Source: a bacterium HR17 (GTDB taxonomy: Bacteria; Armatimonadota; Fervidibacteria; Fervidibacterales; Fervidibacteraceae). Taken from it: a stretch of 49,985 bases of DNA. A program made the translations under genes and the position numbers. This document shows, piece after piece, positions 29,285 to 34,222 of the stretch (the stretch's first letter is position 1; each line of letters starts with the position of its first letter). The notes beneath the pieces are model-generated. The model did not search any database. It was not told the origin of the DNA and saw nothing but the letters and a program-made list of their open reading frames with translations. The stretch covers positions 1-49,985 of the forward strand of contig BEHT01000027.1 in NCBI GenBank assembly GCA_002898575.1. Reading direction: 5' to 3'.

Positions 29285-32200
29285 TCAATCGCTACAAGCA
29301 GATATTGACATGTTTGGTGGTAAGAACAGTTTTTGCCGCTGTCTTTGCGCTTCCCGATGATGACCTTCGTGTAGACGAATCCATAAACGCAGGCGGATAG
29401 GCTTTGGCGGTTTGGCAATTAACTCCATCGTTGCGTAACGCCGTTCAGTTGCGGGCTTGCCTCGCTGTTCGCCCCAAAAACCTTGTCTCACCCAGTTCAC
29501 TCCTCCGTTCGCATTCTTTGAAGAGTTCGGTACCTGCCGAACCGTTTCGTTTTCAACGATGAGCAGCGACAGAGATTCTGTCAAGTCGTTTGGGTTGAAC
29601 AAGCACAAAACTGGTGGCAGCCAATCACCCATCCGCCAGCCAAAGTGAACGACATGCTGTCCGTAGACTTCTGGCGGTTTATCCCCTAAGCCGACAAAGT
29701 TCGGGAACGATTTCGTCCACCAGCGAGCATTAAAGCGAGCCTCTAAGGCAACGAGTTCGTCGGGACGCGGGACGAGGGTCGTGGGACGAGGTTCAACAGC
29801 ACTACTCAATTCCACCAATGGCAAGCCTGAGAAGATGCGATAGCGTTGCGTTGCTTTGAACCCTTGCCCCGTGACTTCAACTGTAACCCAAACGGGGTTA
29901 TGCTCAACAACTCTCACTTTCGCCGCACCGTTTCGTTGCCAAATGAAATTGTCAACGATAAATCGGTCTGTTGTGGTGGCGGGATTTTGCGGGTCAAAGA
30001 GACCGAAGGTGCCGATGCCTGTACCGAAACTTTGTGCAGCGTAATCGCGCCCTGTCACTTTTGAGCGAAACTTTGTCAATGTCCCACCCGCACCTTCACT
30101 CCACTCAAGTTCAATCACGCCGTTATCAACTTGAACGCTACCATCTTTCACCTTCACAGCGATTGACGAAGTTTGAGGTTTGTTGGCACGACATAATGCC
30201 AGCAATAAAGGTTGCCCATCAAAACTGGGTTCAAGGATCAACGAATTTAGTGCGAAGTTGCAGACTCGCTTGTCAGTGCTGCCCTGCAATTTTTCGGCGG
30301 GGATATGAGCGTGATGGAAAACAAGCCTAACTTCTACATCTTTTCGGCGCTCCCACAAATTGGCAGGCAGCATGACTGTCAAAGTTTGCCAACCGCTTTT
30401 GATGTCCAACTCGTCTAACTTCTGATTATCCACGAATACGCTGACACGATTTTGCCAGAAGGCTTGACCGTGCAACTTCAAGCGATAAGAAGGAGCAGTT
30501 GCGGCGGGCATCGTAAGGCGCAGCACTGTCTCACGCCCTTCACCGGGCAACCATCGGATAGTCACATTGTTCGCCCAAATTTCACGGCGGCTAAACCCAC
30601 GCACCAAAACTTTTTCATCGCCTTCCGTCCCGATGTCAACCTGTAACAGTGCTTTTGAAGGCGGCACAACGAAATGCAACCTTTGGGAGTGTGAGGCTCC
30701 TGCCGAACCTTTCAACTTCTCCACATGGGTTGGCAAAGGTGTCCCATCAGGCAAACGGACAATAAAGGTTTCGCCCTTGACACTTTTAGGCAAATCAACG
30801 CTCATCGGTAACCCTTGCGCAGCCTCTGCATCAGCAACGACTATCGTTGCAACTTGGTTGGGATGAGTTTTGGGTAACTGCTCAGGCAACAAAGTTACGC
30901 TCAAAGGTTGCGATCGCTCATGAACACCCGAACTGTCGCGCCAGCGGATGATAAGGGATGCGGGATGGAAGACGAGGGACGATGCAAACGGTAAAGGTAA
31001 GCGAATTTGTCTGCGTTCACCGTCTTTGAGGTCGCCAATGCGAAGGCGCAATTCCTCAGGCAAGTAAGCGTTTGCTTCTGCACGGAGAACGACTTCAACA
31101 TCCTTTGCTGTTTCGCCAGGAACATCCAACGCAGGGTGCCACCATGTCATGTCTCCGAAGGGTGTCGTTGGAGCATTGACAATCATAATTGTGGGCGTAT
31201 GAGAAGTCACACTTGTTGTCAAGCAACGAACATTTGCATTGCGTCCGACGATGAGCGGACGCAGCCAATATGCCGTTTTTCGCGTCCCTCGTCCTGCATC
31301 CCACGCCCCTTTCACGAAAACCGTTTTTGTGCCCCAATCTGCAAACGGCTTAACCTCAACGGGCAAAGCAATTTGGCGTTGTTCCTTTGGCTGTAACCGC
31401 ACAGTCACAGGTTTGCCTTTGATGCTCGCAATTACCGAATCAATTTGGAGCGTGATGGTGATTGGTTCGTCCATCAAATTGCTTACTCTGATGGGCAATG
31501 TCGTTTGCTGCCCCGGGAAAACTACCCACTTGGGCAACGATAACCGCACTGGTGCGTAAACGACTTGATAGACAGCGTAGTGTTGAACGGAATTAACAAA
31601 TGGGACGCGAGACGAGGAATGAACTACAAAGCGATTTCCATCGCGTGAAAGGACAACAATTTCGCTAACAGCCAACCCCCGAACAAGTTTGCCATCTTTG
31701 GACGACAACTCTTCTGGAACGGTCAACCGCAATTTGCGGGGTTGACCTGTGCGATTTTCCAGAAGCAAAAATTTAGTCGTTCCTGCCGTCAAAACAGCGC
31801 TCATTAAGTCGGGATGGTCAGGCAACGAACCTTTGTCAAGGCAGGCAAACTTACCGCATTTCACTTTTGCCACTTGTTCTAAAATTGCCGCCCACCAACG
31901 AGGGTCATCAGTGAAGATGCCGTTGACGAACAAAAGGGACGCGGGACGGGAGACGAGGGATGAGTTTAAAGTGATGAGCAAGTCGCGGAAAATGCCATCG
32001 GCGTAGACGCTGAGCACTTTGCCATCAAGCAAACGAACGCGACGAAGTTGCAGTGGCGCACGAAACTGCTTCGTGTAAGGATTTTTCTGCATTTCACCTA
32101 CAAACTCTGCTGCTTCCATTGGCTGCCACTTGACACTTTTTCGTCCACCGACAGGCACATTGGGGGTGCAAATTTGCACCCAATCAAGCGCCAAGTTACA

Positions 32201-34222
32201 AACTCGCTGTTCGCCCGGAAACCGTTGAGGTTCTTTTTCGCCAGGGATGTGCACTTCAGCGAACTGCAGCCGAACCTCAATGACCTTCATCCCGCCAACG
32301 ATGTCGGCAGGCAACCGCACTTCGTAAACATGCCAACCAGGTTCAATCGTCACTTCGCCGACATTTTGCTCATTCACGAACACAGTCACACGGTTTTGCC
32401 AGATAGCGCTACCGTGCCAGCGTAAGAGCAAGTCATTGTTGGGCAGTGCGGGAAGCAAAAGAACCGTCGTGTTACCAGTTGCTGGTGTCCAACGCACTGT
32501 TGCCTTGCTGCCAGCACCGAAAGCGCCTTCAGGCAACTTGCCCCAATCTTCGCGACCGCTGAAACCTTGAATCAAAACAACTTCGTCACCTGGTGAACCA
32601 ATGTCTGCGAAGAAGTTGAAGAAGCGGGACAGATAACGCTGGATAAGAGATGCAGTTGTCTTTTTCTGTGTTCCTTGCCCTGTGTCCTTTATTCCACCTT
32701 GCGAAGTGATGAGCGTTCGTCCGCCAAGTCGCAACCATTCGTTCAACACTTGGTCAATCCGTTCGTTTTTTGCGTTGAACCCGAAACCGACACCGCCAGC
32801 AGGCGCAATGAGAACGCGAAAGCGCTTCAGGTTCTCCAGCGTCGCTTCACTTTGCAGCACTATGTCAAAAGGAGCATTGACAACCCGCAGCCCTTGCACA
32901 GCGTTGTAAAGGTCATTTGCGTCACCGCCACCGTGCTCAAAAATCCAATCGTTAACGAGCAGACCTATTTCCTCGTCCCTCGCCCCTCGTCCCCCGTCCC
33001 GATAGGTCAGTTGCCAGATTGTGCTGTAGAGCAAGTTGGTTTCACAGAAACGCTTTCCACCTTCCATGCTCGGTTCAAGGTTTGAACCTTCCCACCACTC
33101 GTTCCAACTCAAGTGCAAAACGCCGTCAACAGACCGCATCAAGTTGCCGACCCAAAATCGGTCAAAATGGTGAGGTTCAGGTGGATAAGCAGTGCCGGGC
33201 ACCCGAATGTTCCAGTCAAAGTAACGATGCTTGAGGTGGTCAAAGAAAACAGCCCCGCACTTTTTAGCAACCGCTGCTTGCAAAAATCGTTCGGCATCTT
33301 GTTCGTGAGGTTGACCGAAGATGCCTGCATATGAATGCGGTCCGCCGAAAGTGCGGGCAAATTTTTCAAAACCGAACCCACGAAAAGGAGCGTAACCGAC
33401 ATCAAAAGAGACCCCCAAACCCGGCGAACCCAACTCTTGCCGAACAAGTTGTTCCAACTTCGCCCAATCTTGTTGCCAACGCTCATACTGGTAGGCGATG
33501 CTCATCGCCCTTTGAAACCCGACGGCTTGGAAATTCATGCGGATTTCGGAAAAGTCGCGGAAGTTCGTGCCCCATTCGGCGTTGAGTTTTTCAATGCTGC
33601 CGTAGCGCTGTTTCAGCCAACTCTGGAAGCCTTCGTGGTCAACTGTCAATTCGGGAGCGCCGTTGCGAGCGTAAACCATCTGGAACGGTTTGCCGAACAG
33701 CCAAGTCCACGCAGGCGAACGGGAATAATCACGAAGCCAAAGGTAAGTGTCGCGGTGTTCGCTGATATTGCGCCAAAAGTCGCGCATCGCAAAATTTGTG
33801 CCATCTTGGTAGTAGCCGATGAAAATTGGGTAGCCAAGTGCCCGAACTTTTTCGGCAGCCTTCAAAACTGTTGTCTCGCGGGGTTCGTTGTTCTCACCGC
33901 GCCAATCATGTCCCCAGTAGTCAAGGAAAAAGTGTGTCAAGCCCCAATCGGCAGCGAGCAAAAGTGAGCGGAAGTTGTCGCGAACTTTTCGGCTGTCATA
34001 GTAGCCGTAAAGGGGCGTGTTGTGGACAGCACCGAGCCAATTACCCCACTCTTCATCCTCGTCCCACTCATACCAGTAAAAGAACACAGCGCCGACGATA
34101 GGGGTGTCAAGGTGCTGCGCCCCAACGCTCCTGCAAACACTACTAACCACCACGATCACCGCCAAAGTCCATCGCATCATTACCACGAGTAGTTCAAAAG
34201 CGTAAAGGTGTAACGCACGCAT
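29285..34222 (-). CDS. Giant secreted multidomain glycosidase-like protein (1645 aa)
   Basis: Domains in order: signal peptide (to about residue 35); TIM-barrel-like domain (about 40-400) with FFYWYEWDEDEEWGNW, THFFLDYWGHDW, YGSIEKLNAEWGTNF and LSWNEWWEGSNLEPS, resembling GH99/GH42-type enzymes; a Rossmann-like trimerisation/amidotransferase-type domain (about 418-510); a jelly-roll domain (about 545-690); beta-rich linkers; a second copy of that jelly-roll (about 1195-1345); and a C-terminal beta-sandwich like that ending GH38 alpha-mannosidases (about 1365-1640). The jelly-roll copies share GDE.VL..GFS.RE.W, ..HG.A.WQNRV.VFV and HIP.EK. Probably degrades an extracellular polysaccharide; the catalytic acids are not assigned. 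ATG 34222 has AGGAAAGGTG upstream. Six GGGACGAGGG-type insertions interrupt the frame without breaking it. Confidence 0.87.
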   Translation of the reverse strand: MRALHLYAFELLVVMMRWTLAVIVVVSSVCRSVGAQHLDTPIVGAVFFYWYEWDEDEEWGNWLGAVHNTPLYGYYDSRKVRDNFRSLLLAADWGLTHFFLDYWGHDWRGENNEPRETTVLKAAEKVRALGYPIFIGYYQDGTNFAMRDFWRNISEHRDTYLWLRDYSRSPAWTWLFGKPFQMVYARNGAPELTVDHEGFQSWLKQRYGSIEKLNAEWGTNFRDFSEIRMNFQAVGFQRAMSIAYQYERWQQDWAKLEQLVRQELGSPGLGVSFDVGYAPFRGFGFEKFARTFGGPHSYAGIFGQPHEQDAERFLQAAVAKKCGAVFFDHLKHRYFDWNIRVPGTAYPPEPHHFDRFWVGNLMRSVDGVLHLSWNEWWEGSNLEPSMEGGKRFCETNLLYSTIWQLTYRDGGRGARDEEIGLLVNDWIFEHGGGDANDLYNAVQGLRVVNAPFDIVLQSEATLENLKRFRVLIAPAGGVGFGFNAKNERIDQVLNEWLRLGGRTLITSQGGIKDTGQGTQKKTTASLIQRYLSRFFNFFADIGSPGDEVVLIQGFSGREDWGKLPEGAFGAGSKATVRWTPATGNTTVLLLPALPNNDLLLRWHGSAIWQNRVTVFVNEQNVGEVTIEPGWHVYEVRLPADIVGGMKVIEVRLQFAEVHIPGEKEPQRFPGEQRVCNLALDWVQICTPNVPVGGRKSVKWQPMEAAEFVGEMQKNPYTKQFRAPLQLRRVRLLDGKVLSVYADGIFRDLLITLNSSLVSRPASLLFVNGIFTDDPRWWAAILEQVAKVKCGKFACLDKGSLPDHPDLMSAVLTAGTTKFLLLENRTGQPRKLRLTVPEELSSKDGKLVRGLAVSEIVVLSRDGNRFVVHSSSRVPFVNSVQHYAVYQVVYAPVRLSLPKWVVFPGQQTTLPIRVSNLMDEPITITLQIDSVIASIKGKPVTVRLQPKEQRQIALPVEVKPFADWGTKTVFVKGAWDAGRGTRKTAYWLRPLIVGRNANVRCLTTSVTSHTPTIMIVNAPTTPFGDMTWWHPALDVPGETAKDVEVVLRAEANAYLPEELRLRIGDLKDGERRQIRLPLPFASSLVFHPASLIIRWRDSSGVHERSQPLSVTLLPEQLPKTHPNQVATIVVADAEAAQGLPMSVDLPKSVKGETFIVRLPDGTPLPTHVEKLKGSAGASHSQRLHFVVPPSKALLQVDIGTEGDEKVLVRGFSRREIWANNVTIRWLPGEGRETVLRLTMPAATAPSYRLKLHGQAFWQNRVSVFVDNQKLDELDIKSGWQTLTVMLPANLWERRKDVEVRLVFHHAHIPAEKLQGSTDKRVCNFALNSLILEPSFDGQPLLLALCRANKPQTSSIAVKVKDGSVQVDNGVIELEWSEGAGGTLTKFRSKVTGRDYAAQSFGTGIGTFGLFDPQNPATTTDRFIVDNFIWQRNGAAKVRVVEHNPVWVTVEVTGQGFKATQRYRIFSGLPLVELSSAVEPRPTTLVPRPDELVALEARFNARWWTKSFPNFVGLGDKPPEVYGQHVVHFGWRMGDWLPPVLCLFNPNDLTESLSLLIVENETVRQVPNSSKNANGGVNWVRQGFWGEQRGKPATERRYATMELIAKPPKPIRLRLWIRLHEGHHREAQRQRQKLFLPPNMSISACSD
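29761..33003. repeat. Six dispersed GGGACGAGGG-type repeats inside the giant gene
   Basis: Purine-rich repeats of about 23-34 bases built from GGGACG(C/A)GGGACGAGGGA lie at 29761-29791, 30954-30983, 31601-31623 and 31935-31963 (plus strand reads GGGAC) and at 31281-31310 and 32970-33003 (plus strand reads GTCCC). Each sits in the coding frame. Those whose plus strand is purine-rich encode V/P/R/S-rich loops (VEPRPTTLVPRPDE; NSSLVSRPASLLF). The reverse ones encode R/D/G-rich loops (RDGGRGARDEE; GAWDAGRGTRKTA). I saw no further copies elsewhere in the window. Confidence 0.75.

Follow-up and report, generated by a model that had tools for sequence, protein, structure and literature searches.

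A dispersed four-unit heptad patch lying in frame inside the genes of an uncultured Armatimonadota lineage

Rehm et al. described dispersed heptamer repeats with the unit GGGAATC in Xanthomonas and GGGGA(C/T)T in Nostoc, which prefer four units and fold as quadruplexes in vitro, with unknown function (Rehm et al. 2015; PMC4692102). These repeats are mostly intergenic, with 7-11% intragenic copies in Xanthomonas and about 32% in Nostoc, where the arrays run from 2 to 26 units (PMC4692102). Also dispersed are the Rickettsia palindromic elements, small sequences found in frame inside unrelated genes, including housekeeping genes (PMC10969869). Neither an origin nor a role has been established for the known four-unit heptamer repeats, and only exceptionally do they lie in coding sequence. 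The STRR1 repeats of cyanobacteria are of the same type as the Nostoc GGGGA(C/T)T repeats. Where such repeats lie in coding sequence, orthologous sites can be compared base by base and the question of their origin becomes testable: the flanking protein serves as a clock, the reading frame as a filter, and element-free relatives as the prior state.

The DNA analysed here is a stretch of 49,985 nucleotides (the window), one contig of the 3.15 Mb genome, 96% complete, of bacterium HR17. It was scanned with the period-7 pattern GGGACGN, using mismatch penalties and a threshold score of at least 11.5, which returned six arrays of about four units each, all in one open reading frame:

29285..34222, reverse strand: host gene, an ORF of 1645 aa with a GH42-like domain, carrying all six arrays
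29762..29791, forward strand, antisense to the gene: array 1, residues 1478-1487 (PRPTTLVPRP), score 23.5
30955..30981, forward strand, antisense: array 2, residues 1081-1090 (SSLVFHPASL), score 14.0
31281..31309, reverse strand, sense: array 3, residues 972-981 (GAWDAGRGTR), score 17.5
31602..31617, forward strand, antisense: array 4, residues 869-874, score 11.5; short, the most degenerate of the six
31936..31964, forward strand, antisense: array 5, residues 753-763 (NSSLVSRPASL), score 20.0
32971..33000, reverse strand, sense: array 6, residues 408-418 (RDGGRGARDEE), score 23.5

A sequence-only reading of the window had reported six repeats within this gene, in both orientations and without damage to the frame. 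All six were recovered, two sense and four antisense, in an ORF whose translation stays open for all 1645 codons, and its statement that the rest of the window holds none agrees with the scan, which found no further array at a score of at least 11.5 and none in the reversed window. The word GGGACGAGGG is found 12 times when at most one mismatch is allowed, where 3.5 would be expected; the true repeat unit is the heptad GGGACGN, repeated about four times, and not a 10-base word. The same reading took the repeats to encode low-complexity loops in both orientations, which is borne out. The host protein matches the Pfam family GH42 (E 9.7e-6), the fold match of its structure model is to GH42 beta-galactosidases (5dfa), and its N-terminus looks, by eye only, like a signal peptide. 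An AlphaFold model of residues 30-1200 (mean pLDDT 80.8) covers five of the arrays and places them at a helix end or in loops and hairpin turns between strands: array 2 in a loop that continues into the next strand, array 3 in a hairpin turn, array 5 in an inter-strand loop and array 6 at a helix end with a low-confidence turn.

The family reaches far beyond this gene. The query GGGACGCGGGACGAGGG, with up to two mismatches, gave 41 matches in the bacterium's own genome against 1 in the backwards control; an additional count gave 49 against 1, and the sequence is present in two congeneric genomes as well. With up to three mismatches, the four-unit pattern has 34, 41 and 6 matches in the own genome and the two congeners, and none in the reversed control. 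It has 1 match in the next genus of the family and 2 in the same order, is absent from 271 of the 291 phylum genomes searched, and a few distant lineages of the phylum have copies of the heptad pattern of their own. The genomic count that the sequence-only reading had proposed as a check thus shows a clear excess (41 to 1; 34 to 0), in keeping with its idea of a dispersed micro-element; its description of repeats inserted in one gene was right about the frame and too narrow about the gene. The reversed-pattern controls rule out an artefact of base composition, and an assembly artefact is unlikely, the arrays being found at the same sites in separate genomes.

For the anatomy of the element we used 80 arrays with a score of at least 14, which come from stretches fetched around matches, and weak copies elsewhere may be missed. 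Aligned at the first G, the copies are conserved over 29 positions, that is, four units and a G, after which conservation drops sharply. The element is a discrete patch, 28-29 nt long, in which four GGGACGN units are followed by a single G. The start register falls at this first G in 60 of 73 copies in the two congeneric species G000 and G002, whereas phases come out even when the register is randomised in a simulation. Within each unit, the third G is near-invariant and the best-kept base, A4 is sometimes replaced by G and G6 by A, and N is A in about half of the cases. In the flanks, A is weakly preferred at -2 and C or T at -1 upstream, as is A at +32 downstream; the A at -2 is found in several frames and in both orientations and so belongs to the DNA. 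Because seven is not a multiple of three, all frames of one strand spell the same peptide cycle, GTRDEGR on the G-rich strand and VPRPSSL on the other, which amounts to 9-11 aa per array. A perfect GGGACGN unit is free of stops; openness in all six frames was dismissed as a rare property, since half of all heptamers share it. With four GGG tracts and 4-nt loops, the motif is compatible with a quadruplex, as the suggestion of a G-rich strand structure had it, and many copies have only two or three intact GGG tracts. The arrays contain direct heptads only, with no inverted repeat or palindrome. The order of the letters at N is not common to the copies beyond chance, which gives no support to a single master copy of recent date. 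In a YfhO-like membrane protein of G002 (L137:5980-6422), two groups of three consecutive whole-element copies each were seen, with ATGAT-type spacers between the copies and a period of about 33-34 nt, yielding PVPRPSSPVPSFVPRPLSPVPSSVPRPSSLVP.

Almost every copy lies within a gene. Of the 80 arrays, 77 are wholly inside ORFs that were kept at a length of 100 aa or more, and three are not, with none in the reversed control; the coding fraction of the fetched stretches is 0.86-0.90, and 60 kb of unselected genome contained no array. Relative to their genes, 50 arrays are sense and 27 antisense. The hosts include UvrA, GcvPA, AsnB, GlgB, a 2-oxoacid oxidoreductase pair, an alpha-2-macroglobulin, the CCA-adding enzyme, a dihydroorotase-like amidohydrolase and several glycosidase-like proteins, together with GcvT and a P-type ATPase in G002, both named by eye from the sequence; the array-bearing genes have no common function. 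Among RNA genes, the RNase P RNA of G002 and G000 holds no array. This RNA (L231, L233) is about 40-60 nt longer in the genus than in the relatives G003 and G004. In G000, the same array-bearing stretch stands at the end of one contig (C26:50501-50531) and the start of another (C44:10-40), and the two contigs probably overlap, with one rhamnosidase-like gene split between them.

The state of these sites without an array can be read from orthologues. The closest orthologue of the host protein, in the order-level relative G004, is 68% identical and has no array. At five of the six sites, that of array 1 included, its loop is nonetheless as long as in the host; at the array 4 site the host is 7 aa shorter than G004 and of the same length as L040-L044, while other orthologues are 3-6 aa shorter at some array sites. 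The DNA of the G004 orthologue is slightly heptad-like at three of the four gap-free sites, which could be seeds or very old copies. The word "inserted" in the sequence-only reading is therefore only partly right: at five of six sites G004 has loops of the same length made from other DNA, the outcome that this reading had itself named as contrary to it, and in the host gene the arrays mostly replace variable loops already there, where it had them adding linker peptides.

Codon alignments of UvrA, GlgB, GcvPA and about 20 further genes, with orthologues from G000-G004, extend the picture. The arrays sit in hypervariable loops, and the net length difference, taken against orthologues that lack the array, lies mostly between 0 and +5 aa, below the 9-11 aa that an array contains, which means that old loop sequence was lost and that the arrays largely replace loops; in the CCA-adding enzyme the difference is +9 aa. 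G003 has no array at any tested site, which places the spread on the stem of the genus. Some sites have an array in only one of G000 and G002, many have one in both, often at equal length, and some look decayed, as does the third site of UvrA; GlgB has a full array in G002 and a native GGAACGCAGGA in G000, a difference of +24 nt. In the dihydroorotase-like gene (L236:2814-2839; L024, G004:C103), the copy on a G004 contig has 87% amino acid identity to that of G000 and an array at the same site, and the G003 orthologue is only 55% identical; the G004 gene may have been transferred horizontally, or its contig may belong to the genus and have been misbinned.

Constraint was compared at 14 shared gap-free sites of G000 and G002, a small set affected by saturation and by the choice of sites for a high score in one species. 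Differences there amount to 0.69 at N and 0.10-0.38 at the other heptad positions, and are flat by codon position (0.30/0.26/0.31), whereas the rest of the same genes gives 0.19/0.11/0.48 and differs at 58% of four-fold sites. In the partner of a chosen array, mismatch to the heptad is 0.13-0.19, against about 0.40 expected under neutral decay at equal rates; a value of 0.181 falls to about 0.13 once one misaligned site is left out. Since protein selection is blind to a period of seven and the differences follow the phase of the heptad, the heptad is kept or renewed at the DNA level: constraint or recopying acts on DNA. Shared arrays may also have arrived independently at the same loop in both species. 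Convergence at the protein level is ruled out, as the same DNA pattern occurs on both strands and in several frames.

We lean towards a dispersed four-unit patch, specific to the genus, that is copied at the DNA level, overwrites loops and is filtered by selection, and regard this as the best explanation, somewhat more probable than its negation. New copies of the patch would arise elsewhere, most likely through template switching or through repair between G-rich tracts that stall replication, and the incoming copy would overwrite a similar length of local sequence. Selection would then leave only in-frame copies in tolerant loops, where the loop-like and stop-free character of both peptide cycles may help to make the patch harmless, and inherited copies would decay or be recopied. 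The copying itself and any role of a quadruplex are what we infer here, and the spreading mechanism is putative. Random insertion and selection alone would make intergenic copies common, and the mere three of 80 outside ORFs count against this; their scarcity would need an extra assumption, such as a more rapid loss of copies outside genes or some tie to transcription. Reverse transcriptase (PF00078) is absent from G000-G004, two of these five genomes being only about 60% complete, while control genomes were positive, and there is a single Y1 transposase (Y1_Tnp) in G000 and none in G001-G004; neither enzyme is supported as a driver in the five genomes. In our view the arrays are for the most part tolerated sequence, rather than a gain of protein function. 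A bolder version, in which a quadruplex-type patch of 28-29 bases actively moves or is recopied, rewrites loops in frame and is homogenised over dozens of genes, we entertain only tentatively; if it were true, a DNA-level process would be repeatedly rewriting the loops of housekeeping proteins.

Three other explanations bear on the same observations. Arrays could be born locally by slippage, with chance words in loops (GGGAC, as Trp-Asp or Gly-Thr codons; CTCGTC) being extended while selection keeps the frame. Partial units do occur at array-free sites, namely the GGAACGCAGGA of GlgB in G000, CTCGTC in gcvPA of G003 and GGGGACAGGCGAC in the L136 orthologue of G000, and one distant genome has an open-ended 120-nt array. 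Within the genus, however, length is narrow and ends sharply after four units, net gains are often zero and are not multiples of 7 (the +24 nt of GlgB), and the start register is fixed; open-ended slippage, which the sequence-only reading had also raised, fits the four-unit length poorly, and we consider local birth unlikely. A functional quadruplex or another DNA or RNA signal within genes, marking transcription, translational pausing or replication, would suit the presence of exactly four G-tracts, the preservation of the third G in each, the tracking of conservation with heptad phase and, by analogy, the folding of related heptamers in vitro (PMC4692102). Such a signal sits badly with the use of both strands relative to the gene, with the many copies lacking a full set of GGG tracts and with hosts of no common function, and is distinctly improbable in our view. 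Least credible, and very doubtful indeed, is selection for the GTRDEGR or VPRPSSL peptides as useful linkers, for example for heat stability: the copies are nearly all coding, in frame and in loops or hairpins, but the two orientations give chemically different peptides, changes at N are non-synonymous as often as synonymous, codon positions being equal, and synonymous-type positions in the heptad are better conserved than in the rest of the genes.

Heptads of other forms or arrangements occur in the genus and elsewhere in the phylum. A GGGACGA array of 120 nt and about 17 units lies in or beside a 543-aa open frame in G112 (L271:1461-1580); open-ended growth of arrays thus exists elsewhere in the phylum. 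On several contigs of the distant members G008 and G064, heptads form facing inverted pairs 60-200 bases apart, as opposed to the single patches of the present genus. In G004 the heptad takes a form of its own, GGGACAN (GGGACAT/GGGACAA), and stands in pairs spaced by about 150-200 bases (L237, L238, L239); most of them have only short ORFs nearby and hence look intergenic. A GGGATTT heptad array lies near a distant orthologue of the host protein (L061:11692-11766). G002 contains a second heptad type, GGGACTG/GGGATCA, with the Nostoc-repeat unit and in frame inside genes (L137:5561-5586, L138:689-721, L141:3843-3868).

The sequence-only reading knew of no described element of this form, yet a relative exists: the patch comes nearest to the four-unit G-quadruplex heptamer repeats (PMC4692102), the present motif being compatible with a quadruplex. 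A search of the open-access literature found no paper on coding heptad patches of such form, which is weak evidence, and nothing relevant on the exact word or on Armatimonadota and quadruplexes. Other in-gene or mobile repeats resemble the patch only in part. Like the Rickettsia palindromic elements it is present in frame inside unrelated genes, but those are palindromes of about 150 bp, and the patch consists of 28-29 nt of tandem heptads that mostly replace loop sequence. Unlike REP elements with their RAYT transposase, which pair an extragenic palindrome with a Y1 enzyme, it has no palindrome, and Y1_Tnp was found only in G000; unlike diversity-generating retroelements, it is not accompanied by a reverse transcriptase (PF00078) anywhere in the G000-G004 genomes. 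With phase-variable simple sequence repeats it shares short tandem units within coding sequence, and it differs from them in its near-fixed four units, its place in core genes and the lack of any frame switching seen; in place of their variation in unit number, many shared sites here are equally long in two species, although L137 has extra whole-element tandem copies.

The likeness to the Xanthomonas and Nostoc heptamers is far closer. Both have a seven-base unit in which a tract of three to four G is followed by A, a preference for four units, a dispersed distribution on both strands and hosts of many functions, and G002 and G001 also hold GGGACTG/GGGATTG arrays whose unit is identical to the Nostoc type. 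In contrast to these mainly intergenic repeats, 96% of the present arrays are inside ORFs and in frame, and in contrast to the 2-26 units of Nostoc they are fixed near four. Thus, the kind of repeat is known, and what is new is its almost exclusively in-gene, in-frame location in an uncultured Armatimonadota lineage, where a usually non-coding repeat type can supply loop variation in core enzymes.
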